From: Bacteroidales bacterium
GTDB lineage: Bacteria > Bacteroidota > Bacteroidia > Bacteroidales > JAADJA01
Reading direction: 5' to 3'
Length of the DNA stretch: 55,467 nucleotides
Assembly (NCBI GenBank): GCA_020052415.1
Contig: JAGVPB010000019.1
Location: forward strand, 1-55,467
Shown: one piece after another, positions 11,093-38,593 of the stretch
Layout: each line of letters begins with the position of its first letter
How positions within the stretch are numbered: the stretch's first letter is position 1
Position numbers and translations under genes: made by a program
The notes under the pieces: generated by a model
Told to the model about the DNA's origin: nothing
The model's database searches: none
The model's input: only the letters and a program-made list of their open reading frames with translations

Positions 11093-11124
11093 AAGAATGA
11101 GAATAGAATTATAATATTAGTGAT

Positions 11125-11589: not shown

Positions 11590-11595
11590 CATCCG

Positions 11596-16557: not shown

Positions 16558-16594
16558 CAAGCGACTTATTTGAAATCAGGAAGAATAAAATAAC

Positions 16595-17110
16595 ATGTAC
16601 AGTATAATCAGAAGCATTTGGCTGACTTTCCTGCATGCTTTTCACAAGCGCGAAACAGTGCTGTATCCTGAAGAAAAGCCTTATCTGCCGCCGAGGTACA
16701 GAGGCAGAATCATCCTCAGCCGTGATCCGGATGGAAAGGAAAGATGTGTAGCCTGCAATCTCTGCGCTGCCGCCTGTCCGGTGGATTGCATCTCTCTTCA
16801 AAGCGCCGAGGATGATGATGGAAGACGATATCCGGAATTTTTCAGGATCAATTTTTCACGGTGTATCTTCTGCGGATTTTGCGAGGAAGCATGCCCTACT
16901 TATGCCATACAACTCATCCCCGATTTTGAAATGGGTGAATACAACCGGCAGAATATGGTTTATGAAAAGGAACATTTGCTTATTGATGGCCAGGGAAAAT
17001 ATCATGGTTACAATTACTACCGGCAGGCCGGTGTGGATATGGGTGTAAAAGGCAAAGGGGAAGGGGAAAATGAAGAACCTCCGGTGGATATAAAAAGTTT
17101 ATTAACTTAA
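16595..17110 (+). CDS. nuoI: NADH:quinone oxidoreductase subunit I (clusters N6a/N6b)
   Basis: A 171-residue ferredoxin-like subunit with two complete [4Fe-4S] motifs: Cys51, 54, 57, 61 in [12 protein letters not shown] and Cys90, 93, 96, 100 in [12 protein letters not shown]. It carries electrons from NuoG to cluster N2 in NuoB. The amphipathic N-terminus lies on the membrane in the family. Both sites are intact, in contrast to the half-lost ferredoxin domain of the gene at 37835. Confidence 0.97.
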
Positions 17111-17126
17111 TTCCATAGATGAGACT

Positions 17127-17645
17127 ATGAATATGATATTTTACATTGCGGCATTCGTTTCCATTATCTCTACCGGCCTGGCAATCACAGGCAAAAATGC
17201 CATTCATGCCCTCCTTTTTCTGATACTGTCCCTACTTTCCATTTCGATCATATTTTACATACTTGGAGCTCCTTTCATTGCGGCTCTTGAGGTGATTATT
17301 TATGCAGGCGCTATCATGGTGCTCTTCATTTTTGTGATCATGATGCTGAATGTGGGTCTTGAAAAGGAAATGGAAAAAAAATGGCTTCGACCGCGAATGT
17401 GGATATTACCAACAATACTGGCTGCAATTCTGCTGATCAATTTTCTGATCATGCTCAAAACGGTTCATTTTGAAAAAACAAAAGAAGTGGTTGTTCTTCC
17501 CAAACAAGTTGGAATTTCACTATTTACCACTTATCTAATAGGAGTAGAAATTGCAGCAATTCTTCTGCTGGCGGGTATTATAGGGGCGTACCACTTAGGC
17601 AGCCAAAAGAAGAAAGTCATCCACAGGTTCATGGAAAAAAATTAA
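17127..17645 (+). CDS. nuoJ: NADH:quinone oxidoreductase subunit J
   Basis: A 172-residue membrane subunit with five hydrophobic helices. The third contains LEVIIYAGAIMVLFIFVIMML, with the conserved glycine/tyrosine region that rotates during turnover in characterised complexes. It ends in a short basic cytoplasmic tail. It lies 16 bases after nuoI and 20 before nuoK. Confidence 0.95.
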   Translation: MNMIFYIAAFVSIISTGLAITGKNAIHALLFLILSLLSISIIFYILGAPFIAALEVIIYAGAIMVLFIFVIMMLNVGLEKEMEKKWLRPRMWILPTILAAILLINFLIMLKTVHFEKTKEVVVLPKQVGISLFTTYLIGVEIAAILLLAGIIGAYHLGSQKKKVIHRFMEKN

Positions 17646-17665
17646 TAATCTATCATTTTAAAGAA

Positions 17666-17989
17666 ATGGTCACACTTTCAATCGAAACTCAATTGTTATT
17701 TGCAGGAATTCTTTTCGTGATAGGGCTTGCAGGACTTCTGGTAAGAAGGAACATCATCTTTATGCTGATGTCGGTTGAAATCATGCTGAACAGTGCAGGA
17801 TTGGTCTTCATTATCGCAGGCGCACACTGGCTGCAACCCGACGGACAGGTGATGTTTATTTTCATTCTGGCGGTTGCCGCTGCAGAAGTGTCTGTCGGAC
17901 TGGCTCTCATCCTCCAGATGTACCATCATTACAAGACACTCGACGCAGATACCCTTAACAAATTGAAAGATACACAAGATGAACTTTAA
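17666..17989 (+). CDS. nuoK: NADH:quinone oxidoreductase subunit K
   Basis: A 107-residue three-helix subunit, homologous to MrpC. The two buried glutamates needed for proton transfer are present, in MLMSVEIMLNSAGLVF (helix 2) and AAAEVSVGLALIL (helix 3). The C-terminal tail is short and charged. It is placed 11 bases before nuoL, in standard order. Confidence 0.96.
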   Translation: MVTLSIETQLLFAGILFVIGLAGLLVRRNIIFMLMSVEIMLNSAGLVFIIAGAHWLQPDGQVMFIFILAVAAAEVSVGLALILQMYHHYKTLDADTLNKLKDTQDEL

Positions 17990-18000
17990 CGAATCATAAA

Positions 18001-19878: not shown

Positions 19879-21416
19879 TTCTTGCATATCTGATATTGAT
19901 TTTAATTGCCGGAGGATTGATTGCCTGGCTGGCCGGTAAATGGAACAAAGAGCTTCCACGGTTCATCGCTTTATTTGCACTTTTCACAGATTTGTTCCTG
20001 ACTGTCATGATTTATTTGCAATACAGTAACTCAGATACAAATGACTGGATGCTCGTTTATTCTGCAAGCTGGATACCTCATTTTGGCATAAGCCTGTATC
20101 TGGCGCTGGATGGACTGAGCATTCTTATGCTGCTTCTAACTTTTATTCTCGGCATTATATCGGTTTTGATTTCCTGGAAAGAAATCGATGAACATACCGG
20201 ATTCTTTCACTTTAACATTTTATGGATTCTTTCAGGAATAACAGGTGTTTTCCTTTCCCTGGACCTATTTCTGTTTTACTTTTTCTGGGAGCTGATGCTC
20301 ATACCCATGTATTTTCTGATCAGTATCTGGGGTCACACAAACAGGATTTATGCTTCTTATAAATTTTTTATTTATACGCAGGCAAGCGGATTGATCATGT
20401 TTCTGGCTATTCTGGTTCTGTATTTTATTCATGGGAAAAATACCGGGGTTTATACTTTCAGTTATCCGGAACTTATCGGAACCACCATGTCTCCTGCGAC
20501 GGCAATTCTGCTTATGCTTGGATTTCTGGTCGCATTCCTGGTTAAATTACCTGTTGTTCCGCTGCACAACTGGCTGCCCGATGCCCACACCGAAGCGCCT
20601 ACAGCAGGCAGTCTTATCCTTGCAGGATTGTTACTGAAGACCGGTGCCTACGGCTTACTCCGTTTTGTAATACCTATATTTCCTGAAGCTTCCGTGACAT
20701 TTGCTCCCTTTGGGATGCTGCTGGGAGTGATAGGGATTTTATATGGAGCCAAACTGGCCTTCGCCCAGACCGACCTGAAGCGACTCGTTGCTTATACCAG
20801 TGTCAGTCACATGGGTTTTGTGATTTTAGGTGTTTATGCTTTTAACGAACTGGCCTATCAGGGAGTGGTGATGCAAATGATCGCTCATGCCATTAGTACC
20901 GGAGCATTGTTTATCCTTGTCGGGCAATTGCAGGAGCGTATTCATACCCGCGACATCAACAGAATGGGAGGTCTATGGAAACAGGTACCTGTGATGGGAG
21001 CCATCGGACTCATCTTTTCAATGGCATCACTTGGATTGCCGGGTCTTGGAAACTTCGTGGCTGAATTTCTAACCCTGATGGGAACGTTTAAAGCCAATGT
21101 TCTGATGACATGCCTGGCAAGCCTGGGACTCGTGGGAGCCACCCTGTATTCGTTACGGATCCTGCAAAAAGTATTTTATGGAAAGGAGAGAACAGTTCAC
21201 GTCATTAAAGATTTATCTTTACGGGAGCGGATGATTGCAGGAGTGCTCATTGTTGCAATAGTGTATCTCGGACTTTTGCCACAACAGATTTTCAATACGG
21301 CTAAACCTGCATTAGCAAAATCTTTAAACTCAATTAATAATCAGAGCTCAGGGGGAAAAAATGAGAAATCCGGTACATACAATTTCGTCCCGGAACCGGT
21401 CAGCACAAACCAGTAA
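19875..21416 (+). CDS. nuoM: NADH:quinone oxidoreductase subunit M
   Basis: A 513-residue, 14-helix antiporter-like subunit. Glu in FFWELMLIPMYFLIS (helix 5) and Lys in VAFLVKLPVVPLHNWLPDAH (helix 7), followed by LLLKTGAYGLLRF, are the usual proton-path residues. The last 30 residues after the final helix are polar and serine/asparagine-rich, a tail longer than in many homologues. It overlaps nuoL by four bases; 12 bases separate it from nuoN. Confidence 0.97.
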   Translation: MILAYLILILIAGGLIAWLAGKWNKELPRFIALFALFTDLFLTVMIYLQYSNSDTNDWMLVYSASWIPHFGISLYLALDGLSILMLLLTFILGIISVLISWKEIDEHTGFFHFNILWILSGITGVFLSLDLFLFYFFWELMLIPMYFLISIWGHTNRIYASYKFFIYTQASGLIMFLAILVLYFIHGKNTGVYTFSYPELIGTTMSPATAILLMLGFLVAFLVKLPVVPLHNWLPDAHTEAPTAGSLILAGLLLKTGAYGLLRFVIPIFPEASVTFAPFGMLLGVIGILYGAKLAFAQTDLKRLVAYTSVSHMGFVILGVYAFNELAYQGVVMQMIAHAISTGALFILVGQLQERIHTRDINRMGGLWKQVPVMGAIGLIFSMASLGLPGLGNFVAEFLTLMGTFKANVLMTCLASLGLVGATLYSLRILQKVFYGKERTVHVIKDLSLRERMIAGVLIVAIVYLGLLPQQIFNTAKPALAKSLNSINNQSSGGKNEKSGTYNFVPEPVSTNQ

Positions 21417-21428
21417 AAGACACAACTT

Positions 21429-22850
21429 ATGAATCAGGCAGATTTCAGCTATCTTGTTCCCTTTATCATTATTGCCGGAGCGCCAATCCTGATGATGCTC
21501 ATTATTACCCTAACCAAAAACTTCAGGATACTCTACGGCCTTTCGCTCGGAGCAATGATACTTGCTTTCATTTCTCTCTTTTTTACCGGCAATTCGATTC
21601 CGCATCATGTAAGCTCATTGCTGGTTCTTGACCAATTCAGCGTCGTATTCATGATGGTCATCATCCTCGCAAGCCTGTTGGTGACTTTGCTTTCGTATAA
21701 CTATCTTCAATATCAGGAAAGCGAAAAGGGCGAATATCTCATCGTGCTTTTCGTGGCTGTACTCGGATCAATAATACTGGTATCTGCAACTCATTTCATT
21801 TCCTTTTTTCTCGGGATCGAAACCCTGAGCATTGCACTTTTTATCTTAATTGCTTACCGTAAAATCCACAGCCATGCCATTGAGGCTGGAGTAAAATATT
21901 TTGTGCTGGCTTCGGTTTCATCGGCATTCCTGCTTTTCGGGATGGGTTTAATTTATGCCAATACCGGAGAAATGCAATTTGAAAAAATAGCTATAGCATT
22001 GCACTCTTCCGGATTTTCAACACCGGTTTTATTAGCGGGTTTCGGGATGATGCTGGTGGGTTTGGGCTTTAAACTGGCTCTGGTTCCGTTTCATACATGG
22101 ACACCGGATGTGTATCAGGGTGCTCCCGCACCTGTTACTGCCTTCATTGCGACCATCTCCAAAGGAGCAGTAATGGCATTTTTATTAAGGTTTTTATATG
22201 AACTCGATGCCATCGGAAATAAAAAAGTAATCCTCATTATCACAATCATTTCGGTTCTTTCCATGTTTACCGGAAACTTTTTGGCACTGCGCCAGCAAAA
22301 TATAAAACGCATCCTCGCTTATTCATCCATTGCTAACCTGGGTTATTTACTTGTCACTTTACTTACAGGCAGCGACCTGGGAATCCAGGCTGCAGCATTT
22401 TATCTCATTTCTTACATCATAACTACTCTGGCAGCCTTTGGTGTTATCGGCCTCCTTTCCGGAAAAGATTATGAGGCTGAAAACCTTACAGACTATAAGG
22501 GATTGTTCTGGAAACGCCCCTGGGTGGTCGTCGTATTTACCCTTGCATTGCTTTCCCTTGCCGGAATACCAATCACTTCCGGATTTATGGCTAAATTTTA
22601 TATTGTGTTTGCAGGTGTAAATGCGAATCTCTGGCTGCTCGTGGTAAGCCTGATCCTTAACAGCGTTATCGGTTTATATTACTACCTTCGGATTATTACT
22701 ACACTCTTTACACCGGCGAACGCATTGAAATTTCCTGTTATTTCAATTCCCGGCCAACTTGTATTGTTCATCACGGCGACCGGTATTCTTTGGCTGGGTA
22801 TTTTCCCACAGTGGTTCTTTGAACTTTTTTCCGGATTTAGTGGATTTTAA
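21429..22850 (+). CDS. nuoN: NADH:quinone oxidoreductase subunit N
   Basis: A 473-residue antiporter-like subunit and the last gene of the operon. FFLGIETLSIALFIL carries the helix-5 Glu and GLGFKLALVPFHTWTPDVYQ the helix-7 Lys. Then APAPVTAFIATISKGAV with a further Lys follows. A strong terminator begins 12 bases after the stop, so the operon ends here. Confidence 0.97.
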   Translation: MNQADFSYLVPFIIIAGAPILMMLIITLTKNFRILYGLSLGAMILAFISLFFTGNSIPHHVSSLLVLDQFSVVFMMVIILASLLVTLLSYNYLQYQESEKGEYLIVLFVAVLGSIILVSATHFISFFLGIETLSIALFILIAYRKIHSHAIEAGVKYFVLASVSSAFLLFGMGLIYANTGEMQFEKIAIALHSSGFSTPVLLAGFGMMLVGLGFKLALVPFHTWTPDVYQGAPAPVTAFIATISKGAVMAFLLRFLYELDAIGNKKVILIITIISVLSMFTGNFLALRQQNIKRILAYSSIANLGYLLVTLLTGSDLGIQAAAFYLISYIITTLAAFGVIGLLSGKDYEAENLTDYKGLFWKRPWVVVVFTLALLSLAGIPITSGFMAKFYIVFAGVNANLWLLVVSLILNSVIGLYYYLRIITTLFTPANALKFPVISIPGQLVLFITATGILWLGIFPQWFFELFSGFSGF

Positions 22851-24618: not shown

Positions 24619-25035
24619 ATGGATATTGCTTATTTAAGAAAAATACTTATTGAAAAAGGTCTGAAAATTACACCCCAGCGACTCATTGTCCTTGAAGCTG
24701 TGAAGACTTTGAATAATCATCCGACTGCTGATAATGTGATGGTTTATATTAAAAACAATCATCCGAACATTGCTATCGGCACCATTTATAACATTCTCGA
24801 TACCTTTGTGGAATTTGGAATATTGCGGAAAGTCAATACCGAAAAAGATATTATGCGATATGACCCGATTCTTGAGAACCATCATCATCTGTACAGTGGC
24901 GACTCAAATCGTATAGAGGATTACTTTGACAACGATTTGGACCTGTTTCTGAAAAAATATTTTACTAAAAAAAATATTCCGGGTTTTGAGATTGAAAACA
25001 TTAAATTACAGATAAAAGGTAAATTCAAACCTTAA
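24619..25035 (+). CDS. perR: PerR-like peroxide-sensing repressor of the Fur family, without structural-zinc cysteines
   Basis: A 138-residue winged-helix regulator (KITPQRLIVLEAV, then IGTIYNILDTF in the recognition region). Aligned to B. subtilis PerR with a constant offset of three, the regulatory metal ligands His37, Asp85, His91, His93 and Asp104 are present as His34, Asp82, His88, His90 and Asp101. Asp at the last position is the residue linked to peroxide sensing rather than iron sensing. The structural zinc cysteines (96, 99, 136, 139) are missing: Ser93 and Ser96 replace the first pair, and the protein ends where the second pair would be. It contains no Cys at all. It is followed after 17 bases by catalase, which fits a peroxide regulon. 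Confidence 0.85.
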   Translation: MDIAYLRKILIEKGLKITPQRLIVLEAVKTLNNHPTADNVMVYIKNNHPNIAIGTIYNILDTFVEFGILRKVNTEKDIMRYDPILENHHHLYSGDSNRIEDYFDNDLDLFLKKYFTKKNIPGFEIENIKLQIKGKFKP

Positions 25036-25052
25036 CCGCTAAAACTTACAAT

Positions 25053-26519
25053 ATGGCAAAGAAAAAACTAACTACGGCATCCGGTATCCCTTATACTGAA
25101 AATGAGAACAGTATGACCGTCGGGCCACAGGGACCGATATTGCTTCAGGATTTTATTCTTCACGAAAAAATGGCACACTTTAACCGGGAACGGATTCCTG
25201 AACGGGTAGTCCACGCAAAGGGAACAGGCGCTTTCGGTAAATTTACAGTAACGCATGATATTACAAAATACACCAAGGCTAAACTTTTAAGTAAAATCGG
25301 AAACGAGTGTCGTGTTTTTGTAAGGTTTTCGACTGTGGGCGGCGAAAAAGGCAGCGCCGACACCGAACGCGATCCGCGAGGGTTCGCCATGAAATTCTAT
25401 ACTGAAGATGGAAACTGGGATTTAGTCGGAAATAATACCCCGGTTTTCTTTATAAAGGATCCGAAAAAATTCGGCGATTTTATTCACACTCAAAAAAGGG
25501 ATCCAAGAACAAATTTAAAGAGCCCGACAATGATGTGGGATTTCTGGAGCCTTAATCCTGAAAGCCTTCACCAGGTGATGATCCTTTTCAGCGACAGGGG
25601 AACACCATACAGCTACAGACATGTTAATGGTTACGGAAGTCACACCTTTTCGCTTATCAACGCCAAAAATGAACGGATATGGGTGAAGTTTCATGTAAAA
25701 ACCTTGCAGGGAATTAAAACATTTACAGGGCCGGAAGCTGAAGCGATGAAAGCGAAGGATATGGATTGGGCGCAGCGGGACCTGGTGGAAGCCATCGAAA
25801 GAAAAGAATTTCCTAAGTGGGTTATGAAAATCCAGACAATGACTAATGAGCAGGCTAAAAAGTTCCGGTGGAATCCGTTCGACCTGACTAAAATATGGCC
25901 GCACACGGAATTCCCTTTGATAGATGTGGGTATTATGGAACTGAATGAAATACCGTCGAATTATTTCAGGGACGTTGAACAATCGGCCTTTGAACCGGCT
26001 CATGTGGTGGACGGAATAGGCTATTCGTATGATAAGATGCTTCAGGGAAGACTCCTCTCCTACCCCGATACCCATCGTTATCGCCTGGGTGTGAACTATG
26101 AACAGATCCCTGTAAACCGGCCAATAAACCAGGTTAACAATTACGAAAGAGACGGCCACATGCGCGTTGACAGTAACGGAGATGATAAACCCAATTATTC
26201 TCCCAATAGCTTCGATGATATTGCTGCCGACGAAAGCTACAAAGCGCCGGCACAGAAACTGGATTCCGATATGGCTTACTGGTTCGACCGGAATGAAAAT
26301 GATGATGATCATTTTACGCAACCCGGCTGGCTTTTCAGAAAAGTGATGACGGACGATCAAAGACAAAATACAATTCATAACTTTGTAAGCTCGATGAGCA
26401 AGATAGGTACTCATAAAAGGGAAGAGATTATAAACAGGCAACTGGGTTATTTTTACAAGGCCGACATTGAATTGGCGCTGAAAGTTGCCGAAGGACTCGG
26501 TATTGATTTTAAACCGTAA
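25053..26519 (+). CDS. katA: monofunctional haem catalase
   Basis: A 488-residue small-subunit (clade 3-type) catalase that converts hydrogen peroxide to water and oxygen. The distal His lies in RVVHAKGTGAFG (about residue 54), the distal Asn in VGNNTPVFFIKDP, and the haem-binding Tyr in RLLSYPDTHRYRLG. No signal peptide is present, so it is cytosolic. It stands between the perR-like gene (17 bases) and bacterioferritin (17 bases), forming a three-gene unit that removes peroxide and stores iron. Confidence 0.97.
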   Translation: MAKKKLTTASGIPYTENENSMTVGPQGPILLQDFILHEKMAHFNRERIPERVVHAKGTGAFGKFTVTHDITKYTKAKLLSKIGNECRVFVRFSTVGGEKGSADTERDPRGFAMKFYTEDGNWDLVGNNTPVFFIKDPKKFGDFIHTQKRDPRTNLKSPTMMWDFWSLNPESLHQVMILFSDRGTPYSYRHVNGYGSHTFSLINAKNERIWVKFHVKTLQGIKTFTGPEAEAMKAKDMDWAQRDLVEAIERKEFPKWVMKIQTMTNEQAKKFRWNPFDLTKIWPHTEFPLIDVGIMELNEIPSNYFRDVEQSAFEPAHVVDGIGYSYDKMLQGRLLSYPDTHRYRLGVNYEQIPVNRPINQVNNYERDGHMRVDSNGDDKPNYSPNSFDDIAADESYKAPAQKLDSDMAYWFDRNENDDDHFTQPGWLFRKVMTDDQRQNTIHNFVSSMSKIGTHKREEIINRQLGYFYKADIELALKVAEGLGIDFKP

Positions 26520-26536
26520 TATTAAAAATAAACATT

Positions 26537-27037
26537 ATGAAAGAAAAAAGTATTGAACTATTAAACAAGGCCGTTGGTGACGAACTGGCGGCAGTACATC
26601 AGTATATGTACTTTCATTTTCGTTGCGATGATATGGGTTACGACCTGCTTGCAGGCCTTTTCAAAAGGACTGCCATCGAAGAGATGCTGCATATCGAAAA
26701 CCTTGCGGATCGTATTTTATTCCTGAAAGGAGAAGTTGAACTGAAAGCCAGCGTTGAGGTTAAGAAATTACACGAGGTTAAGGAAATGCTGATGATGGGT
26801 CGAAAAATGGAAGAAGAAAGCGCCAGGGATTACAACCTGTGGGCTAACGAGTGTGCCCAGAACGCGGATTCCGCATCTAAAAAAATCTTCGAAGCCCTCG
26901 TGGCTGACGAAGAACGACATTTCGACCAATACGACACTGAAATGGATAACCTCGAAAAGTTCGGAGATAAGTATCTTGCACTTCAATCTATTGAGAGGAG
27001 CAAAAACGTACAGGCACGGACGGCAGCATCCGCTTAA
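26537..27037 (+). CDS. bfr: bacterioferritin-like iron-storage protein
   Basis: A 166-residue four-helix ferritin-like protein. Di-iron ligands are visible: Glu in DELAAVHQYMY (helix A), ExxH in EEMLHIE (helix B), a Glu in helix C (KMEEESARDY) and ExxH in DEERHFDQY (helix D). The Met in EEMLHIE matches the haem-ligand Met of bacterioferritins. About eight residues longer at the C-terminus than E. coli Bfr, with an Ala/Ser/Arg tail. It probably oxidises and stores iron using peroxide. It is the last gene of the perR-katA unit, closed by a terminator. Confidence 0.88.
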   Translation: MKEKSIELLNKAVGDELAAVHQYMYFHFRCDDMGYDLLAGLFKRTAIEEMLHIENLADRILFLKGEVELKASVEVKKLHEVKEMLMMGRKMEEESARDYNLWANECAQNADSASKKIFEALVADEERHFDQYDTEMDNLEKFGDKYLALQSIERSKNVQARTAASA

Positions 27038-27243: not shown

Positions 27244-29337
27244 ATGTCTAAAAATCTTTATATAGCAGCAGCAGAAGCCGATTCGGGTAAATCACTGATC
27301 GTCCTTGGAATCATGAATATCCTGTTGAGGTATGTCAAAAGAGTCGGTTTTTTCAGGCCTATCGTTAGTCTCAAAAAGAATCAGGATCACGATATTGAAC
27401 TGGTTTCCAAACTCTATAACCTTCCTTTTGAACAGAATTCCATGTACGGAGTCACTTCCGAAGAGGCTCAGGCATTGATACAGGGCGGCTATATGGATGA
27501 CTTGTTTTCTGCAATCCTGAACAAATATAAAAAACTGGAACAACAGTGTGATTTTGTTTTGTGCGAAGGAACCGACTTTACAGGTTCCCTGAAACCTTTC
27601 GAATTCGACTTCAATGCACAGATAGCAAATAACCTTGGTGCGCCCATTATCGCAGTAGTGAATGGTCACGGAAAAATTGTAGGGGAAATAGCGGATACGA
27701 TCCAGATGTTTAAAAATGTTCTCACACGCGAAAAATGCTCTTATGTTGGGATGTTTGTTAACCGGGTAAATCCGGAAGACAGACTCTCAGTAACTGAGGT
27801 ACTAAAAAAGTCTAAAACCGACAGCGAAATTGATTTTGTAATCCCGGAACAGGCATTGCTTCAAAAAATTACTATTCGACATATTATAGATGCACTTCAT
27901 GCCGACTGGATTTATGGTGATGATGAGGTCCTCGATTATGATGTAAACGACTTAAAGATAGGTGCAATGAATGTGGAACACATCCTTAAGCTGACCAATA
28001 ACGGGACTCTTGTGATTACTCCCGGAGACAGGACCGATGTGCTGACAATACTGTTCATGACACTTTTATCTGACAATTACCCTAAAATTGCCGGCATCAT
28101 ACTGACAGGCGGATACCGCCCAAACGAAGAGCTGATGAAGCTGATCAGGGGAATAAAGAAACTACCGGTAGCTGTTTTCAAAGTAGAGACAGATACTTTT
28201 GATACAGCGATGAACGTAAGTAAAATCAGGCCATTGCTTACACATGATAATGAAAGACGTATGGCCATCGCTTTAGGACATTTCGATGCTCATGTGGATG
28301 CATCTATACTTAAACAAATCGTTTCGGTTGCGCCTTCAAGTGTGGTCACACCCATTATGTTTGAGTACCAGCTCTATGAAAGGGCTCGTGCTCATCGAAA
28401 ACATATTGTATTGCCGGAAGGCACTGAAGAGCGTATGCTCAGGGCTACTGAAATTCTTCTGAGGAGAAATGTGGTTGATATAACTTTGCTTGGCAATGAA
28501 GCAGAAATCCTTAAAAAAGCCGATTCACTCCACCTGAAGCTTACCGGTGCCAACATTATTGATCCGTTCGATAATGATTTGATCAATGATTATGCTTTGA
28601 CTTATTTTAAGCTCAGGAAAGAGAAAGGAATAACCAGGGAAGCAGCTTTTGATATCATGCGCGATGTGAGCTATCTTGGTACCATGATGGTGTACAAAGG
28701 TCATGCTGACGGTATGGTTTCCGGTTCTGTTCATACTACGCAGCACACCATCAGGCCGGCATTTGAATTCATAAAAACAAAGCCCGGTTTTTCGATTGTT
28801 TCGAGCTGCTTCTTCATGTGTTTCGAAGACAAAGTACTGGTTTACGCTGACTGTGCGGTGAACCCCAATCCCAATTCAGAGCAACTGGCCGATATTGCAA
28901 TAAGTTCCGCCGATACCGCCAAAGCTTTTGGAATAGAACCACTGATTGCAATGCTTTCTTATTCTACCGGCGAATCCGGAAAAGGTGAAGATGTTGAAAA
29001 AGTAAGGAAAGCCACAGATATTGCCCGAAAACGCCGTCCTGAATTGAAAATAGAAGGACCTATACAATACGATGCCGCTATTGATGCCACTGTTGCAAAA
29101 CAAAAGATGCCTGATAGCAAGGTTGCAGGAAAAGCCACCGTTTATATTTTCCCCGACCTGAATACAGGTAACAATACATACAAAGCAGTGCAACGGGCAT
29201 CAGGTGCACTGGCTGTGGGACCCGTTTCACAAGGACTCAACAAACCTGTAAATGACCTGAGCCGGGGTTGCACTGTGAAGGATATAGTAAACACTGTTTT
29301 GATCACTGCCATTCAGTCGCAGATGAACGGGAAATAA
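27244..29337 (+). CDS. pta: phosphate acetyltransferase, long form
   Basis: A 697-residue enzyme that interconverts acetyl-CoA and acetyl phosphate. The N-terminal domain (about 1-210) is a P-loop dethiobiotin-synthetase-like domain (AAAEADSGKS). A DRTGG domain follows (about 215-330). The catalytic phosphotransacetylase domain (about 370-697) has RKHIVLPEGTEERMLRA, SYSTGESGKG and GPIQYDAAID near the active site. The three-domain form is the regulated type seen in E. coli. Acetate kinase, its usual neighbour, is not in the window. It is a single-gene unit and convergent with the methyltransferase gene. Confidence 0.95.
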   Translation: MSKNLYIAAAEADSGKSLIVLGIMNILLRYVKRVGFFRPIVSLKKNQDHDIELVSKLYNLPFEQNSMYGVTSEEAQALIQGGYMDDLFSAILNKYKKLEQQCDFVLCEGTDFTGSLKPFEFDFNAQIANNLGAPIIAVVNGHGKIVGEIADTIQMFKNVLTREKCSYVGMFVNRVNPEDRLSVTEVLKKSKTDSEIDFVIPEQALLQKITIRHIIDALHADWIYGDDEVLDYDVNDLKIGAMNVEHILKLTNNGTLVITPGDRTDVLTILFMTLLSDNYPKIAGIILTGGYRPNEELMKLIRGIKKLPVAVFKVETDTFDTAMNVSKIRPLLTHDNERRMAIALGHFDAHVDASILKQIVSVAPSSVVTPIMFEYQLYERARAHRKHIVLPEGTEERMLRATEILLRRNVVDITLLGNEAEILKKADSLHLKLTGANIIDPFDNDLINDYALTYFKLRKEKGITREAAFDIMRDVSYLGTMMVYKGHADGMVSGSVHTTQHTIRPAFEFIKTKPGFSIVSSCFFMCFEDKVLVYADCAVNPNPNSEQLADIAISSADTAKAFGIEPLIAMLSYSTGESGKGEDVEKVRKATDIARKRRPELKIEGPIQYDAAIDATVAKQKMPDSKVAGKATVYIFPDLNTGNNTYKAVQRASGALAVGPVSQGLNKPVNDLSRGCTVKDIVNTVLITAIQSQMNGK

Positions 29338-31290: not shown

Positions 31291-33282
31291 ATGGACGCAC
31301 CGGTATTTATTGTTTTTCTCTTTTCTTCTTTTCTCCTTTTTATCCTGCCTCGCGCCGTCAAGTATAACTTCACTTTGCTCCTCATTTCCTCAAGTACCGT
31401 CCTAACCTCCATTTGGTGTTTCGAAATCTTCAACACCGCTGAGGAAGTTCTTAATATCCGGTACAGCATAGCTGGCTTGTTTGATTTTCCCTTACTTACC
31501 ATTGATCGTCTTTCCGCTTTTTTTATTGTTGTGATCAACATTACTGTATTTACGGGTATCCTTTTTGCAAAAGGCTACCTGGAGCCTTACCAGAATACAA
31601 AGCGGCAATTGTCATTTACTATCCATTATTTTGCCTATCTATGGCTATATTTTTCGATGCTGCTTGTTGTTATGCTTCGCGATGGATTTGCCTTCCTTAT
31701 CAATTGGGAATTAATGTCGCTGTCATCCTTTTTACTCGTCATATTCGATGCCGAAGACCGTTCAACGCTTAAAACAGGAATCAACTATCTTATTCAAATG
31801 CATGTTGGATTCGCAATGCTCCTTATCGCTTTTCTTATCACTGAAAAAGCGACCGGCACAATGAGCTTCGATGCGCTTACCCAATACTTTTCAGGCCGTC
31901 CGAATATATTGTTGTTCCTGTTATTTTTCATCGGTTTCGGCATTAAGGCCGGGTTCATACCAATGCACACCTGGCTTCCCGAAGCGCATCCCGCTGCCCC
32001 ATCGCATGTTTCGGGAGTGATGTCAGGAGTTATGATTAAAATGGGTATTTATGGTTTATTAAGGGTTTTATTATCTGTTCAATCTGATCTTTTATGGATA
32101 GGAACCATCATCCTTGCAGTGTCACTGATCTCAGGCATCTTAGGTGTTATGACAGCCATAATTCAGCACGACCTGAAAAGACTCCTTGCTTACCACAGCA
32201 TCGAAAACATCGGCATCATCGGCATCGGTATCGGGCTCGGGATCATCGGAAAAGCTACCGGTAATAACGGGCTTGCTTTGCTTGGGCTCAGCGGTGGTTT
32301 ACTTCACGTATTGAACCACTCTCTTTTTAAGTCACTGCTGTTTTATGGAGCAGGATCGGTTTATCGGGCTGCCCATACCCGCACTATTGACCATCTGGGT
32401 GGGCTGATAAAGAAAATGCCATATACCGCTGTGTTCTTCCTTATCGGTTCGCTAGCAATCTGCGGACTGCCACCATTCAACGGATTTATATCTGAGTACC
32501 TGATCTACTTAGGAATGTTTAAAAGTCTTTCAGGAGCCAACCTGTACCAAATCATTACAATACTATTCAGCATAATCGGCCTTACATTGATAGGCGGACT
32601 CGCGGTCTTTTGCTTTACCAAAGCTTTCGGAATGGTATTCCTTGGACAACACAGGAGTGCAAATGCTCAAAATGCTGTCGAATCTGGTAAAGGCATGTTG
32701 GTCCCGCAGGTCATTATTATTGTTTTAATTCTAATGATAGGACTGGGATCGTCCCTTTTTGTAAAACCAATCTTTAAGCTGATCACAGAGGTTTTTCATC
32801 TCAAGGGTGATATTCCGGTAACTTTAACCTCAATCAACAGCCTTCAGCAGATAAGCATACTGGGCGGGATGTTCATCCTGCTGATTGTTGCAATTTTGAT
32901 TTACAGAAGGATTCATCTAAGGACAAAGGTCATAAGCTACGGGCCTACATGGGGCTGCGGTTACACTGCCGGGTCGCACAAGCAACAGTACACCGCCACT
33001 TCGTATGCAGACAATTTCGGTTATCTTGCCAATCCTGTAATGGGGAACAGAAAGGTTTTCCGCAATATAGAAGCCAACGATATTTTTCCTGGAAAGAGGA
33101 AATTTCTTACGCACAACTTTGATGTTTTTAAGCGGTATATGATTGACAATCCAATTACCGTCATGCAGGAGCTGCTGAAAAAGATCGCCATAATGCAGAC
33201 CGGGCAAATCCAGCATTATATTTTATATGCTTTTGTTTTCATGCTGATCGTGTTCATATTAACCTTTTTTAAAGCGATATGA
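31291..33282 (+). CDS. hyfB: HyfB-like (NuoL/MrpA-type) antiporter subunit of a hydrogenase-4-related complex
   Basis: A 663-residue membrane protein of the complex I antiporter family. Ion-path residues are kept: Glu in FLINWELMSLSSFLL, Lys in FGIKAGFIPMHTWLPEAHPA, and Lys in GVMIKMGIYGLLRV. The C-terminal 150 residues include YGPTWGCGYTAGSHKQ, typical of HyfB/HycC-like rather than NuoL proteins. In hydrogenase-4 and formate hydrogenlyase this subunit forms part of the pump arm. It is the first of six packed genes and overlaps hyfC by four bases. What the complex oxidises or reduces is unclear because its large subunit lacks the nickel ligands. Confidence 0.88.
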   Translation: MDAPVFIVFLFSSFLLFILPRAVKYNFTLLLISSSTVLTSIWCFEIFNTAEEVLNIRYSIAGLFDFPLLTIDRLSAFFIVVINITVFTGILFAKGYLEPYQNTKRQLSFTIHYFAYLWLYFSMLLVVMLRDGFAFLINWELMSLSSFLLVIFDAEDRSTLKTGINYLIQMHVGFAMLLIAFLITEKATGTMSFDALTQYFSGRPNILLFLLFFIGFGIKAGFIPMHTWLPEAHPAAPSHVSGVMSGVMIKMGIYGLLRVLLSVQSDLLWIGTIILAVSLISGILGVMTAIIQHDLKRLLAYHSIENIGIIGIGIGLGIIGKATGNNGLALLGLSGGLLHVLNHSLFKSLLFYGAGSVYRAAHTRTIDHLGGLIKKMPYTAVFFLIGSLAICGLPPFNGFISEYLIYLGMFKSLSGANLYQIITILFSIIGLTLIGGLAVFCFTKAFGMVFLGQHRSANAQNAVESGKGMLVPQVIIIVLILMIGLGSSLFVKPIFKLITEVFHLKGDIPVTLTSINSLQQISILGGMFILLIVAILIYRRIHLRTKVISYGPTWGCGYTAGSHKQQYTATSYADNFGYLANPVMGNRKVFRNIEANDIFPGKRKFLTHNFDVFKRYMIDNPITVMQELLKKIAIMQTGQIQHYILYAFVFMLIVFILTFFKAI

Positions 33283-34193
33283 AGTTTGCGGGTATCTTTT
33301 TGATTATTATGGCAGCAGCTATTTTCCCGGGGATAATCCTGAGGGTCAAAAGCATTGCAGGCGGACGGAAAGGCCCCGGTATTTTTCAGCCCCTAAAGGA
33401 CATCAGGGTATTACTGATGAAAGGAAGTGTCTTCAGCCAAACAACAAGTTTTATTTTCCAGATAGCACCAACTATTGCATTGGCGACAGTAGTCATTGCA
33501 ATACTTTTGGTTCCTGTTGCAAACCAGGATGCCGTGTTTGCATTTGAGGGCGATTTTGTTTTCTTTGCTTACCTTCTTGCATTGGGCAAATTTTTTACAA
33601 TTATTTCTGCGCTCGACACCGGTAGCGCATTCGAAGGGATGGGCGCCAACCGTGAAGCATTATTTTCAATGTTAATTGAGCCTGCTTTTTTTATTTTACT
33701 GGCAACCTTCGCGATGTTTACTGGATATACTTCCTTTTCAGACATCATGACACATTTTCACATCACGGATAATCATTATGTGATGATATTCAGCATCCTC
33801 GGATTTTATGTACTTATTCAGATCGCGATGATAGAGAACAGCCGGGTTCCTGTTGACGATCCGAAAACCCACCTCGAACTGACAATGATCCATGAAGTGA
33901 TCATCCTCGACAACAGCGGATTTGATAAAGCTTTAATTCATATTGGTACCTTTTTGAAGTTTTCCATCTACGGAGCTTTGATCAGTAGTTACCTGGTTCC
34001 TGCCGGATGGAATATTGGAGCGCAGGTCGCACTTTTTATTGGCATACAGGTTTTCTTTGCCACGATTATTGGCTATCTTGAGTCATTCAGAGCAAGGAAT
34101 AAAATGGTTAAGAACTCTCAGTATATACTTACGGTTTCTGCTATTGCGATAATAGCTTTTGTGATTGTGCTGATTTTGACAAATAAATTATAA
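33279..34193 (+). CDS. hyfC: HyfC-like (NuoH-type) membrane subunit
   Basis: A 304-residue, eight-helix homologue of NuoH, HycD and HyfC, which joins the peripheral arm to the membrane arm. Diagnostic parts are GGRKGPGIFQPLKDIRVLL, TGSAFEGMGANREALFSML with conserved acidic residues, and ENSRVPVDDPKTHLELTMIH, the counterpart of the NuoH 'THRxPFDxPEAExEL' loop. The acidic and basic residues of the connecting channel are therefore conserved. It overlaps hyfB by four bases. Confidence 0.88.
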   Translation: MKFAGIFLIIMAAAIFPGIILRVKSIAGGRKGPGIFQPLKDIRVLLMKGSVFSQTTSFIFQIAPTIALATVVIAILLVPVANQDAVFAFEGDFVFFAYLLALGKFFTIISALDTGSAFEGMGANREALFSMLIEPAFFILLATFAMFTGYTSFSDIMTHFHITDNHYVMIFSILGFYVLIQIAMIENSRVPVDDPKTHLELTMIHEVIILDNSGFDKALIHIGTFLKFSIYGALISSYLVPAGWNIGAQVALFIGIQVFFATIIGYLESFRARNKMVKNSQYILTVSAIAIIAFVIVLILTNKL

Positions 34194-34240
34194 ATCGTTT
34201 AAATTAAATCTTTGGATAAATAAATAAGTCTTTATTAAAG

Positions 34241-34870
34241 ATGTTAAGCTTTCTCACCATACTTTTCGCCCTTACGCTAATTTATCTGAGCATTACAGAG
34301 AGGTTCAGGTCGTTTTCAAAGCTCATTGCCATACAGGGATTCCTGCTTTTCGGGATTGCCTTCCTTGAACTCACAGAGGTGAATACGGCTAACCTGATCT
34401 TCATTGTCACTGAAACTGTGGTCTTTAAAGCGATAGTCGTTCCAATGATACTTTACAGGATCATCAACCGGATCAGAATTTATAAAGTACACTCCAAGGC
34501 GTTGCCAGGATTTTATTCCCTGCTTTTCACAATCATGGGTTTATTTCTAAGCATAATTTTAGCAAATACCCTCATGGATAAATTCATTGATACGGTTTAC
34601 CTGACCATTGCCCTTTTCACCCTCTTTACAGGATTGCTGATCATTGTTACACATAAACTTCTTTTCTCCCACATGATCGGATTTCTTGTCATAGAAAATG
34701 CAGTGTTCATGTTTTCACTTGCAGCCGGAAAAGAAATGCCCATGCTCATCAACATCGGTATTTTACTCGATATCTTTGCCAGCGTATTGATCCTTGGCAT
34801 TTTCATTAACAAGATCGGAAGTCAGCACAGGGACCTCATGGCTGATACATTAACAAGCCTAAAGCATTAG
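34241..34870 (+). CDS. hyfE: HyfE-like (NuoK/MrpC-related) membrane subunit
   Basis: A 209-residue membrane protein with six to seven hydrophobic helices. The C-terminal part contains HMIGFLVIENAVFMFSLA with a buried Glu, like helix 2 of NuoK; the N-terminal part has IVTETVVFKAIVVPMIL. This matches HyfE of hydrogenase-4. It follows hyfC after 47 bases and precedes hyfF by four. Confidence 0.85.
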   Translation: MLSFLTILFALTLIYLSITERFRSFSKLIAIQGFLLFGIAFLELTEVNTANLIFIVTETVVFKAIVVPMILYRIINRIRIYKVHSKALPGFYSLLFTIMGLFLSIILANTLMDKFIDTVYLTIALFTLFTGLLIIVTHKLLFSHMIGFLVIENAVFMFSLAAGKEMPMLINIGILLDIFASVLILGIFINKIGSQHRDLMADTLTSLKH

Positions 34871-34874
34871 CACG

Positions 34875-36296
34875 ATGGTACTTTATTACTATATAGCAGC
34901 ATTGATCCTGAGTATGGCTGCTTTGTTCATTAAAAAGCAAAGCGTCACAAAAATCATTATGACTGTGTTTTTATTGGTACAGCTACTGTTTACCCTGCAC
35001 ATCATGCAAAATTCCGGAAAGACGGAACTTACCTATTTCACATTTGATGCGCTTGGAACAATTTTTCTGATCGTGCTGACAATGATCAGCATTGCAGTTG
35101 TTTATCACGGATTCCGGTATTTCAGCGACCGTAGTCCTGAACGTTTCTTTTATTATCATTCAGCCCTTATCGGTTTGATTGCGTCCATAACCGGAGCTTA
35201 TTTCGCCAATGATGTTACCGCCGTCTGGGTGCTGGTCGAGGCAACGACACTCACAGGCTCTGTACTGATCTATCATAAGAAGACAACCACAGCGCTTGAA
35301 GCTGCCTGGAAATATATTTTCCTTTGTTCGACAGGAATTGCAATAGCTTACCTCGGTATTTTATTTTTAAGCATGACCATGACGGGATTGGGAATACAGG
35401 ATCTTTCGTTCGAAAGTATTAGTAAAGTAGCTGCCCATGCCAATCCGCTTTATTTAAAAATAGCTTTTCTGTTCGTATTGGTTGGCTACAGTACAAAAAT
35501 GGAATTGTTCCCAATGCACACGGTCGGGATTGATGCCAATACCGAGGCCCCCTCTCCTATTGGCGGCCTGATTTCTACAGGATTGGTAAACCTGGGTTTT
35601 ATTTCCATTTTCAGGGTTTATATTTCACTTTCTGGAACAACGATTTTTGATTGGATGAATCACATTTTTATCATCGTCGGAGTGTTTTCGCTGGTTGTTG
35701 CAGCCGGTTATGAATTAAAGGTAAGGTATAGCGCCCGTATGCTTGCTTATTCGAGCCTGGAAAATACAGGTCTCGTTGCAATTGCCATCGGTGTAGGCGG
35801 AATCGGATATTATGCTGCGATCCTGTTACTGGTTTTACACACACTGGTCAAATCAAGCCTGTTTTTCCAGACAGGACAGATGTATCGCATCCTGAACACC
35901 CACATGGTTGATGAAAGCGGTAATTATATGAAGATATATCCGGCCGGGGGACTGGTTTTTCTTATCGGATTGATTTGCATTGCTGCCATTCCACCTTCCG
36001 GACTGTTTGTCGCTGAATTTTTAATCTTTAAATCGCTTGTGAGCAGCGGCCATTGGTTCGTACTGATACTTTCGTTGTTCTTATTAGCCTTCATCATTTT
36101 TGCTATGAGTACCCGTATCCTGAAAATGGTATTTTCAAGACCGCAAAGATTCGGTGATGAGGATTTTATAAAGCTTCATCCCGTGGAAACACTTAGCCAG
36201 TTCATTTTTTTAAGCATTGTAATTTTTATTTGTTTTTATCAACCCCAGTTTTTAGTTGACCTGATCAACCAAAGCATTGCAGGTCTTCCAAAATAA
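34875..36296 (+). CDS. hyfF: HyfF-like (NuoN/NuoM-type) antiporter subunit
   Basis: A 473-residue, 14-helix antiporter-like protein. Glu in VWVLVEATTLTGSVLIYH (helix 5), Lys and Glu in GYSTKMELFPMHTVGIDAN (helix 7), EAPSPIGGLISTG, and Lys in VAAGYELKVRY lie where ion-translocation residues are found. HyfF is the second antiporter module of hydrogenase-4, so this complex would have two (with HyfB). There is no HyfD-like third antiporter gene. Confidence 0.86.
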   Translation: MVLYYYIAALILSMAALFIKKQSVTKIIMTVFLLVQLLFTLHIMQNSGKTELTYFTFDALGTIFLIVLTMISIAVVYHGFRYFSDRSPERFFYYHSALIGLIASITGAYFANDVTAVWVLVEATTLTGSVLIYHKKTTTALEAAWKYIFLCSTGIAIAYLGILFLSMTMTGLGIQDLSFESISKVAAHANPLYLKIAFLFVLVGYSTKMELFPMHTVGIDANTEAPSPIGGLISTGLVNLGFISIFRVYISLSGTTIFDWMNHIFIIVGVFSLVVAAGYELKVRYSARMLAYSSLENTGLVAIAIGVGGIGYYAAILLLVLHTLVKSSLFFQTGQMYRILNTHMVDESGNYMKIYPAGGLVFLIGLICIAAIPPSGLFVAEFLIFKSLVSSGHWFVLILSLFLLAFIIFAMSTRILKMVFSRPQRFGDEDFIKLHPVETLSQFIFLSIVIFICFYQPQFLVDLINQSIAGLPK

Positions 36297-36302
36297 TTTG
36301 CC

Positions 36303-37823
36303 ATGAACGAAAAGAACTATATAGAAATATTAAACAATGGCTCACCGGTCCTGCTGAAAAATATCCCGGTTCTCAACTACCCGGATTTTTACAATCTTCT
36401 GAAAGAAATGCTGTCCGATCCCGATTCTCATTGCGTAGCATATTATGCATTTCCGGTGGAAAATATGTTGAAATTCATTTGTTGTATTGCCAACGATAAA
36501 ACGTCAGGTATAGCTGTTTTGTCGCATGAACAGAAGAATCATGAAATTGCTTTACTATCACTGACCTCCGAAATTTTTGCAATGCATGTTTACGAAAGAG
36601 AGATTCATGAAAACTTCGGAGTTCAATTCAGGAATCATCCCTGGTTGAAACCCATCCGCTACCCTTCCGACCGTTTCTACAAGGGCAATGTAATGAATAA
36701 TTATCCTTTCTATCAGATTGAAAGTGAAGAGTTGCATGAGGTTGGTGTTGGCCCTGTTCATGCGGGAGTGATCGAGCCGGGGCATTTCAGGTTTATCTGC
36801 AATGGTGAAAAGGTTCTTCATCTCGAAATTCAACTTGGATATCAGCATCGTGGTATCGAAAAGCTGATGATTCAAAAGAATGATCCGTTTCAGCGAATGA
36901 TCCTCTCGGAAAGTATTGCAGGTGACTCCGTCATTGCGCATGGCTTGGCTCACACAGGACTCATTGAATCCCTTGCAGAGCATAATGTTTCCGAAAGACT
37001 TCAGATCGAACGGAATATCGCACTTGAACTTGAAAGAATTGCAATCCACATTGGTGACACGGCTGCATTGTGCATGGATGTAGCTTACCAGTTAGGGCAG
37101 GTGGTGAACGAGGCGCTTCGGACAACAATTATAAATACAACTCAGCTATGGTGCGGCAACCGTTTCGGAAAAGGACTGATAAGGCCCGGAGGAAGTAATT
37201 ACCCTTCAACAGACGATTTTATCAAATCTATGCTAAGTACCCTTGAAGAAACATTAAGGAGGTATGAAGATATTACTGACAGGATCTATTCGCTACCCAG
37301 CGTGCTCTCTAGGTTCGATGGGATCGGTATCCTCACACAGGGACAGGCAAAATTGACTGGTGCAGTCGGCATGGCAGCACGGATCACAGGAATTGCGAGA
37401 GATATAAGAAAAAGCCATCCGTTCCAGTATTTTCGACAACATCCGGTTGAACCGGTAACTCAGATAAGCGGTGATGTACTCGCAAGGGGGATGCTCCGCA
37501 ACCTTGAAGCAAGGCAGTCCATTGGATTGATCAAACAATGGACTAAGAAATTAAATGAGGCGGAAGAAAGTAATAAAAAGCCCGATTACAATTATAAACT
37601 GCAACCTGAATCTTTTGCTATTTCGTTAACAGAAGGCTGGCGTGGAGAAGTTTGCCATTCAGCCGTTACGGGCAAAAACGGAAATATAATTCATTATAAG
37701 ATTAAAGATCCCTCGTTTCACAACTGGATGGCGCTCGCATTGGCAGTTAGGAACCAGGAAATTTCAGATTTCCCGGTTTGCAATAAAAGCTTTAACCTGT
37801 CTTATTGCGGAAATGATTTATAA
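36303..37823 (+). CDS. HyfG/HycE-like large subunit (NuoC+NuoD fusion) lacking all [NiFe] cysteines
   Basis: A 506-residue homologue of group 4 hydrogenase large subunits. The N-terminal NuoC-like domain has VYEREIHENFGVQFRNHPW and KPIRYP. The large-subunit domain begins at GVGPVHAGVIEPGHFRF, with QLGYQHRGIEKL. In active enzymes the next motif is ER-I-C-G-I-C-x3-H; here it reads ESIAGDSVIAH, so the two Cys are Ala206 and Ser209 while His213 is kept. The C-terminal DPCxxC motif is replaced by NKSFNLSYCGNDL, with Ser500 and Gly503 at the Cys positions (Cys502 is one residue off). It ends there with no maturation peptide. It cannot hold a [NiFe] centre and is best placed with Ehr-type complexes. 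Confidence 0.85.
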   Translation: MNEKNYIEILNNGSPVLLKNIPVLNYPDFYNLLKEMLSDPDSHCVAYYAFPVENMLKFICCIANDKTSGIAVLSHEQKNHEIALLSLTSEIFAMHVYEREIHENFGVQFRNHPWLKPIRYPSDRFYKGNVMNNYPFYQIESEELHEVGVGPVHAGVIEPGHFRFICNGEKVLHLEIQLGYQHRGIEKLMIQKNDPFQRMILSESIAGDSVIAHGLAHTGLIESLAEHNVSERLQIERNIALELERIAIHIGDTAALCMDVAYQLGQVVNEALRTTIINTTQLWCGNRFGKGLIRPGGSNYPSTDDFIKSMLSTLEETLRRYEDITDRIYSLPSVLSRFDGIGILTQGQAKLTGAVGMAARITGIARDIRKSHPFQYFRQHPVEPVTQISGDVLARGMLRNLEARQSIGLIKQWTKKLNEAEESNKKPDYNYKLQPESFAISLTEGWRGEVCHSAVTGKNGNIIHYKIKDPSFHNWMALALAVRNQEISDFPVCNKSFNLSYCGNDL

Positions 37824-37834
37824 AAACAGTCGCA

Positions 37835-38593
37835 ATGTTCAAAGAACTTAAAATAATAAAACAGCATGGGAAGCAGTTCGTCCCCGACCTGACGGCGGTG
37901 GAACTTACACCGCTTTTCAGGGGAAGGCCGGTTATCAGCAGCCTGCCGGATAACAAGGAAATTGAAAGGGTGGTCAGGTTTTGTCCAACAAGAGCAATTC
38001 TACCAGAGCCATTCGGAATTGATTTGGGAAAATGTGTTTTTTGCAAGGAATGTCAGTTTATGCTTCCTGACAAGATTGTTTTTACAAACGATTATAAGAT
38101 TGCAACCAATGACAGAAAAAGGCTGGTTGTACAAGGTGGTGTGGATAAAACCATTGAATTGAATCCTGATCTTGTAAGGAGGGAAATCAGGAAATATTTT
38201 AAGAATTCTTTGAAGCTCCGACAAATTTCAGCAGCGGGCGACAATAGCTGCGAAATGGAATTAAATGCCTCGGGGAATGTTAACTTCGACATGGGAAGAT
38301 ATGGAATCGAGTTCGTTGCTTCACCCCGGCATGCCGATGGAATTGTGATTACGGGTCCCATTTCGGAAAACATGGCTGAAGCAACCCAAATTTGTTATGA
38401 TGCAACTCCGGATCCAAAAATCATTATTCTTGTTGGAACAGATGCAATCAGTGGAGGAATTTTTGAAGGAAGTCAGGCTGTAAACCGCAGTTTCCTTGAC
38501 AAATACCCGGTTGACCTTTATGTCCCCGGAAATCCTGCACATCCGCTTACTTTTATTAACGGAATATTATCAATGCTCGGAAAAAAGAAGTGA
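37835..38593 (+). CDS. half-ferredoxin fused to a HyfI/NuoB-like small subunit that has lost its N2 cluster ligands
   Basis: A 252-residue fusion. Residues about 40-90 are a ferredoxin domain. Cys67, Cys70, Cys73 (KCVFCKEC) and Cys50 (RFCPTRA) make one complete [4Fe-4S] site. The three Cys that should precede Cys50 are absent, and Leu77 replaces the last Cys of motif two, so the other site is gone. Residues about 125-252 match HyfI, HycG and NuoB (CEMEL, FVASPRHADGIVITGP, AISGG, YVPG), but the four cluster ligands read Asp136, Cys139, Asp203 (VGTDAISGG) and Asn233 (YVPGNPAHP). Only one Cys of four survives. The same organism's NuoB keeps all four. It is the last gene of the operon, convergent with folA. 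Confidence 0.85.
   Translation: MFKELKIIKQHGKQFVPDLTAVELTPLFRGRPVISSLPDNKEIERVVRFCPTRAILPEPFGIDLGKCVFCKECQFMLPDKIVFTNDYKIATNDRKRLVVQGGVDKTIELNPDLVRREIRKYFKNSLKLRQISAAGDNSCEMELNASGNVNFDMGRYGIEFVASPRHADGIVITGPISENMAEATQICYDATPDPKIIILVGTDAISGGIFEGSQAVNRSFLDKYPVDLYVPGNPAHPLTFINGILSMLGKKK

Follow-up and report, generated by a model that had tools for sequence, protein, structure and literature searches.

The stretch of DNA analysed here, hereafter the window, is the 55,467-nucleotide contig JAGVPB010000019.1 of a Bacteroidales bacterium (assembly GCA_020052415.1). At 31291-38593 on its forward strand it carries an operon, hyfB-hyfC-hyfE-hyfF-L-S, related to the genes of respiratory complex I and of group 4 [NiFe] hydrogenases, where L and S stand for the large and the small hydrogenase-like subunit. 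Its six open reading frames (ORFs) are intact, consecutive and joined by short or overlapping junctions. Pfam and NCBIfam assigned the six proteins to HyfB, NuoH/HyfC, HyfE, HyfF, NuoC fused to NuoD (L), and a NuoI-like ferredoxin fused to NuoB (S); HyfE and the ferredoxin part of S were assigned through weak matches under the curated cut-offs. The same searches revealed no NADH module, no HyfD and no hyp gene product among the six proteins. The genes and the sites discussed below are as follows.

31291..33282, + strand: hyfB, large antiporter-like subunit of 663 amino acids with an ND3-like C-terminal part; loop cysteine C556 at 32956-32958
33279..34193, + strand: hyfC, NuoH/HycD-like anchor of 304 amino acids; acidic loop E186, D193, E200, E206 and D211 conserved
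34241..34870, + strand: hyfE, 209 amino acids; E152 and D177 common to Escherichia coli HyfE; NCBIfam match under the cut-off
34875..36296, + strand: hyfF, second antiporter-like subunit of 473 amino acids
36303..37823, + strand: L, NuoC+NuoD/HycE-like large subunit of 506 amino acids without [NiFe] ligands
36918..36929, + strand: old N-terminal CxxC of the [NiFe] site in L, now A206-G207-D208-S209
37800..37820, + strand: old C-terminal CxxC in L, now S500-Y-C-G503, followed by N-D-L and the stop codon
37835..38593, + strand: S, small subunit of 252 amino acids; ferredoxin domain at the N-terminus, fused NuoB/HycG-like domain at residues 115-252
37982..38053, + strand: remaining [4Fe-4S] ligands in S, C50, C67, C70 and C73, of N6b type
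38240..38533, + strand: old N2 site in S, with D136 at 38240-38242, C139 at 38249-38251, D203 at 38441-38443 and N233 at 38531-38533

The membrane arm is retained, with two antiporter-like subunits, an ND1-like anchor and the coupling loops. Ion-path residues are present in both HyfB (E140, K219, K250, K347, E402) and HyfF (E122, K208, K326, E381); the position of HyfB K250 is occupied by Asn in HyfF, as it is in E. coli HyfF. C556 of HyfB was found in all 49 aligned HyfB sequences and aligns with the W-x-C-G loop of E. coli HyfB. An earlier description of this DNA made from its letters alone, the sequence-only reading, had proposed a tightly packed six-gene operon that keeps the Glu/Lys ion path and the acidic loop of HyfC, and the ORF coordinates, junctions, families and residues given here agree with it. 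Its statement that no NADH module, HyfD or hyp gene lies nearby holds for the operon itself; the surroundings do include a NADH module, in a complete complex I operon (nuoA, B, CD, E-N) at 8277-22850, 8.4 kb upstream.

In contrast to this arm, the head has lost nearly all of its redox sites. Profile alignment of L with the solved HycE, MbhL and Nqo4 placed the [NiFe] cysteines of HycE at A206, S209, S500 and G503, so that all four are lost. The quinone-site tyrosine of Nqo4 aligns with G207; because of this Gly and because no [NiFe] cysteine is left, neither known acceptor fits L. Similarly, the N2 cysteines of MbhJ and HycG align with D136, C139, D203 and N233 of S, three of the four being lost. 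The ferredoxin motif of S could hold a single [4Fe-4S] cluster of N6b type, the ligands of the second cluster having disappeared. These alignments bear out what the sequence-only reading had said of the [NiFe] site, N2 and one ferredoxin cluster. The predicted structures nonetheless resemble hydrogenase subunits: L (predicted local distance difference test, pLDDT, 84.9, with low confidence in the loop 131-159 and the last five residues) best matched E. coli HycE (7z0s_E, Z 42.4, 478 residues aligned, root-mean-square deviation 2.8 Å), and residues 115-252 of S (pLDDT 87.8 for the whole model) matched HycG (7z0t_G, Z 15.2, 137 aligned, 1.7 Å).

Energy-converting hydrogenase-related (Ehr) complexes have been reported from Geobacter, Sulfobacillus, Nitrospira and others, and the accessible text of these papers describes a large subunit without [NiFe] motifs and leaves the function open. 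The operon matches them in its six syntenic genes, which comprise relatives of hyfB, nuoH, hyfE and nuoL as well as those for hydrogenase-like subunits, and L lacks both CxxC motifs. Judged by its sequence, the complex is an Ehr complex, an assignment made by published description rather than by a tree with a named Ehr. Since Ehr complexes were already known to lack [NiFe], the unusual loss is solely that of N2 and one ferredoxin cluster, which sets the window's clade apart from Ehr in general; equally unusual are that this joint loss has become fixed throughout a broad clade and that the heads form the series described below. No published Ehr small subunit without N2 was found in the accessible literature, in a search that stopped short of Marreiros 2013 and Coppi 2005.

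To look for relatives, genome contigs were scanned with S; 105 were found, of which 80 (58-81% identity in S) were fetched and analysed. Going by the titles of their records, most belong to Bacteroidota, with one from Delongbacteria and one from Marinimicrobia. The order A-C-E-A-L-S, where A is an antiporter-like gene, was contiguous in 50 of the 80 loci, the other 30 being cut by contig ends, interrupted or rearranged. Against five relatives, the proportion of non-synonymous differences (pN) was 0.10-0.32 and that of synonymous differences (pS) a saturated 0.74-0.87; of the 30 gene pairs, a single one escaped saturation of the synonymous distance (dS) and gave a finite ratio, 0.041, in a set in which HyfB of locus L006 is a fragment. 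In 148 genomes of one order, L was present at E 1e-60 or better in 37, at full length in 36 and as a shorter, weaker match in one, and none of these matches contained an internal stop. Occurrence is patchy, as a second genome of the window's genus gave no match to L. By these sequence measures the operon is maintained under strong purifying selection and is not a relic; the inactivating mutations in relatives that the sequence-only reading had named as evidence against its view were not seen in these L matches.

The conservation of S depends on the site considered. The four cysteines of the remaining cluster (C50, C67, C70, C73) were invariant in all 81 aligned sequences, and the cysteine positions of the second ferredoxin cluster were variable, the top residue reaching 37-54%. 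At the old N2 site, D136 was found in 79 of the 81 sequences, C139 in 74, D203 in 77 (with Glu in three more) and N233 in 80; in a thinned set of 37 sequences, all under 75% identity, these numbers became 36, 33, 35 (plus one Glu) and 37, respectively. A special conservation of this site was considered and rejected, as its four positions rank 46, 68, 60 and 33 of 137, no higher than the rest of the domain. Because of this, and because the nearest relative, L006, has Gly at position 139, the old N2 site could hold a metal but need not. Position 203 was Asp or Glu in all three N2-less lineages, a regularity noticed post hoc and without a test.

The pocket of L combines retained residues with new conserved ones. 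H153, H249, E402 and R447 were invariant in 33 of 33 classic Ehr sequences and in 68 of 68 L sequences of the window's clade (13 loci without a long enough L being excluded from this count), and position 360 was Arg or Lys. In the order H153, H249, E402, R447 and 360, these align with H188, H284, E437, R478 and R395 of HycE, which the available part of the formate hydrogenlyase (FHL) structure paper assigns to the beta1-beta2 loop and the proton path. The position of the canopy aspartate (HycE D529) was Asn, Asp or Ser. Several residues, among them D208, D469, N494, K495, S500 and G503, were near-invariant in Ehr and absent from the three hydrogenases and the two NuoD sequences compared. D208, new to Ehr, was invariant in the window's clade, and D208, D469, N494, K495 and a C-terminal tail motif were kept in 32 or 33 of the 33 classic Ehr L. 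We also observed cysteines conserved in the clade at positions 44, 60, 61, 166, 257, 284, 451 and 493 of L, with C166 found in 68 of 68.

HycE is cleaved at R537 on maturation, and L ends at the residue aligned with it. The three hydrogenases compared carry an extra C-terminal tail that is absent from the Ehr sequences and from the two complex I sequences; since the two NuoD sequences end likewise, the end of L at 506 reflects the lack of a hydrogenase tail and is not specific to Ehr. In the accessible text of the FHL structure paper, the hydrogenase domain of HycE is given as 182-537.

Other Ehr heads have lost clusters in other ways. The cluster content of 40 S sequences was compared, the relatives coming from plasmids and from other genomes of the Bacteroidota phylum. 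All three clusters (N6a, N6b and N2) were found in Variovorax, G101, G011, G016, G082, G035, G014 and B. cenocepacia, N6b with N2 in G078 and G097, and N6a with N6b but without N2 in L070. N6b alone was found in the window's clade, G009, Allomeiothermus and M. branderi, and N2 alone, in an S without ferredoxin domain, in Rhizobium, Azospirillum thermophilum, Methylocalor, Cupriavidus, Paraburkholderia and Rhodococcus. The ferredoxin entries of Rhodovastum_Hyf, Azosp_Hyf and Rhodococcus are meaningless, as their frames were read upstream of the annotated start, and in the hydrogenases of the comparison the ferredoxin domain sits in a separate gene. The full [NiFe] set is missing from all of these relatives, with a single Cys left at the four positions in M. 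branderi and none in the others.

A tree of 40 L sequences, in which 21 of 37 inner branches were well supported, placed the N2-less clade in one group with L070 basal (92/89) and the three-cluster G101 adjacent (100/100). The minimum number of changes on this tree was three for N2, two for N6b and five for N6a. Two rows of the fluoride clade described below were placed by long meeting branches, and Variovorax and G078 were weakly placed; the relatives in the tree are plasmid-borne, no named EhrL (Geobacter) is among them, and a second, cut Variovorax L was dropped. On these sequence comparisons, the clusters of Ehr are interchangeable and the coupling parts are not.

One sister clade has a regulatory signature. 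Its six-gene operons, in the order C-E-F-L-S-B, lie on plasmids of B. cenocepacia, B. multivorans, Caballeronia and M. branderi, and a fluoride riboswitch was found just upstream in four of the four operons examined (members H92 and H95 were left out), with a NUDIX gene in between in M. branderi. A lone L of Alicyclobacillus, without the other five genes, likewise has one upstream by a home-made model. Nine Rfam hits in L105 and L108 served to build that model, R1, and its matches in L131, L132 and L134 are not Rfam calls. The riboswitches directly upstream of Ehr-like genes are as follows.

L105 (M. branderi), 4127-4200
L108 (B. cenocepacia), 4482-4552
L131 (B. multivorans), 4630-4700
L132 (Caballeronia), 4584-4654
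L134 (Alicyclobacillus), 7732-7792

The genes at these riboswitches are Ehr-like and lack the full [NiFe] set. Weinberg et al. (2010), in the part of the paper available, list formate hydrogen lyase genes among the targets of the crcB motif, and a review, in its accessible text, ranks Na+/H+ antiporters as the second commonest gene class behind the fluoride riboswitch. In many cases, the formate hydrogenlyase assigned to the fluoride regulon may be an Ehr. Neighbourhoods in this clade include crcB, DUF190, inorganic diphosphatase or enolase genes. At Rfam gathering scores, seven plasmid loci gave no match to the fluoride riboswitch. A fluoride link for the window's own operon was rejected, as no fluoride riboswitch was found in the window or in the scanned loci of its clade.

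Genome context was then compared in the 148 genomes of the order. Haem-copper oxidase was commoner with Ehr (24/37 vs 39/111, p 0.002, kinship uncorrected), and the window's genome encodes two subunits of it. HypD was not commoner (11/37 vs 40/111), and neither [FeFe] hydrogenase (29/37 vs 71/111) nor membrane pyrophosphatase (36/37 vs 97/111), the latter also encoded in the window, differed significantly. The window's genome (G000, 97.4% complete) gave no match to HypD, which 4 of 14 control genomes matched, nor to the NiFeSe hydrogenase large-subunit family, nor to [FeFe] hydrogenase at E 1e-20. Among the 80 loci, no conserved partner outside the six genes was found: the commonest outside family, M49 peptidase, occurred in at most 15, followed by Peptidase M20, gamma-glutamyltransferase, glycosyltransferases and a phosphate transporter, which looks like local synteny. 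The co-occurrence and neighbourhood analysis suggested by the sequence-only reading thus yielded an oxidase association and no conserved neighbour beyond the six genes.

Several arrangements of the genes themselves were also observed. S is encoded away from L in L009, L047, L051, L075, L080, L081 and L085, several of them from Prevotellaceae bins, with L elsewhere in each genome, and where S stood apart from the operon, L was still in the genome for 9 of the 10 genomes tested. In L082, A-C-E-A-L and A-C-E-A-S stand in tandem, and L084 carries A-C-E-A-S; L and S are thereby divided between two membrane-arm sets. L is intact in these genomes. The whole operon occurs twice in tandem at L008:3512-18000. 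A second gene of HyfB size precedes the operon in 12 of the 80 loci (L025 of Flavihumibacter profundi, L030, L036, L037, L043, L049, L050, L052, L056, L059, L064 and L068), and since two such genes stand in a row, a membrane arm with three antiporter-like subunits is possible there. In the window, a Fur-type regulator, catalase and ferritin-like genes form a row at 24619-27037, an oxidative-stress set between complex I and phosphate acetyltransferase (27244-29337). A further NuoB/NuoD-type locus lies in the genome at G000:C79, about 160-163 kb.

Comparison with known systems further delimits the complex. It resembles the group 4 [NiFe] hydrogenases (formate hydrogenlyase, Hyf, MBH) in its HycE and HycG folds and proton-path residues, but lacks the [NiFe] ligands, the cleavable tail and the proximal cluster (one of four ligands left), in a genome without a HypD or NiFeSe large-subunit match. 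With complex I (NDH-1) it shares the homologous Q-module fold, the membrane arm, the canopy Arg, the loop His and acids of the E-channel type, whereas the operon has no NADH module, N2 is missing and Gly stands at the aligned quinone tyrosine. MBS, the sulfane sulfur reductase of Pyrococcus, is likewise a complex I relative without [NiFe] site; according to the accessible text on it, however, it has three clusters and performs its chemistry at a proximal cluster held by three cysteines, of which S keeps one. An MBS-like sulfur reduction was excluded, as the cluster that performs it is absent. Finally, HyfB and HyfF match families of MrpA/MrpD type, among others, but the small Mrp subunits B, C, E, F and G are not among the six proteins, and the peripheral arm and NuoH-like anchor of the complex set it apart from Mrp antiporters.

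A conserved pump arm and a nearly redox-free head, both under selection, argue for a function other than that of a hydrogenase or complex I, as the sequence-only reading had supposed. We tentatively favour, with a probability of about 0.4, an Ehr-type, antiporter-like ion-translocating machine whose coupling would not involve electrons passing through the head. It would exchange H+ for Na+ or K+, or translocate H+ only. The L/S pocket would act as a protonation or ligand-binding switch, either by way of a proton relay or by taking up a small ion or ligand, and the isolated cluster would either sense redox state or oxygen and gate the pump, or be structural. Such a machine may serve to balance ions and pH in cells of which most respire as well. 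Electrons running through the head are unlikely to be needed for what all Ehr do in common, because clusters were lost in various combinations whereas the proton path, the coupling loops and the pocket were kept. The oxidase association and the sister clade behind fluoride riboswitches, an ion and pH stress regulon, also count in favour.

Several observations weigh against this machine. The strict invariance of the four cluster cysteines suggests that redox chemistry still matters in the window's clade. The operon encodes no small subunits of Mrp type, and ion transport by the complex is itself a prediction. No fluoride riboswitch was found in the window, which gave no Rfam match at gathering scores, and R1 matched only L105 and L108 among 69 sources that included 47 of the 80 loci of the window's clade; the fluoride clade is remote in the tree, where long branches connect it, and lacks H153 and D208. 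Furthermore, the oxidase association is modest, four families having been tested in all, and COX1 gave no match at E 1e-40 in 13 of the 37 Ehr genomes. We hold a broader version to be rather doubtful, namely that Ehr would be the redox-free branch of the complex I superfamily, with the coupling apparatus retained in full and a non-redox input, in which N2 of the window's clade became an Asp-Cys-Asp-Asn site (perhaps for a divalent cation or protons) and whose ion and pH stress role would be revealed by the fluoride clade, long filed as formate hydrogenlyase.

The most serious alternative, although an unlikely one, is a redox pump driven by ferredoxin, in which the N6b-type cluster would pass electrons to an unrecognised acceptor or cofactor in the rebuilt N2/[NiFe] pocket and the reaction would drive the membrane arm as in complex I. 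The cluster cysteines found in 81 of 81 S speak for it, as do the ordered positions D136, C139, D203 and N233, which could bind a metal or cofactor, the conserved cysteines of L such as C166, and the presence of [FeFe] hydrogenase, a sign of ferredoxin metabolism, in 29 of the 37 Ehr genomes. However, that enrichment was not significant, and the window's own genome had no match. Without N2, the distance from cluster to pocket is probably too long for tunnelling; relay distances in FHL are under 14 Å in the accessible text on that enzyme. Moreover, the same pocket residues are kept in Ehr that lack a ferredoxin domain, among them those of rhizobia.

A non-redox step in the pocket of L, such as small-molecule binding, hydration or hydrolysis coupled to ion flow, appears clearly improbable to us. 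Coupling of this kind has been proposed for DAB-type CO2 uptake, which employs a NuoL-like subunit, and the new invariant residues D208, D469, N494 and K495 together with the strictly kept tail motif would suit such a step, but the neighbours, the commonest in 15 of the 80 loci, point to no substrate. Still less probable, and very much so, is that the Ehr complex regulates another respiratory complex by redox sensing or takes part in its assembly, the complex I encoded 8.4 kb upstream being an example. The complete complex I operon in the same window is consistent with it, and the separation of S from the rest in some genomes suggests that parts can be separately expressed; two antiporter subunits with their ion-path residues, and the duplicate HyfB of 12 loci, are hard to explain by regulation. 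A hydrogenase relic on its way to loss, as one 2026 paper in its accessible part assumes for the Geobacter Ehr and as the patchy occurrence (37/148, and none in the second genome of the genus) might suggest, was rejected as extremely unlikely in view of purifying selection, intact frames, invariant residues and a gene order kept across a wide clade. Among the three speculations of the sequence-only reading, then, the antiporter or conformational machine fits best, the ferredoxin input with a new acceptor, which the invariant cluster cysteines support, is less likely, and the regulator found no specific support.

There is still debate over how complex I links the chemistry of its head to the passage of ions through its membrane arm. 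A natural complex under selection that retains coupling loops and ion path, but has a single cluster and neither N2 nor a quinone or [NiFe] site, offers a ready test of the parts that suffice for moving ions. The finding also bears on the role of Ehr and argues against viewing these complexes as dead hydrogenases, and the range of Ehr heads provides natural variants for comparison.

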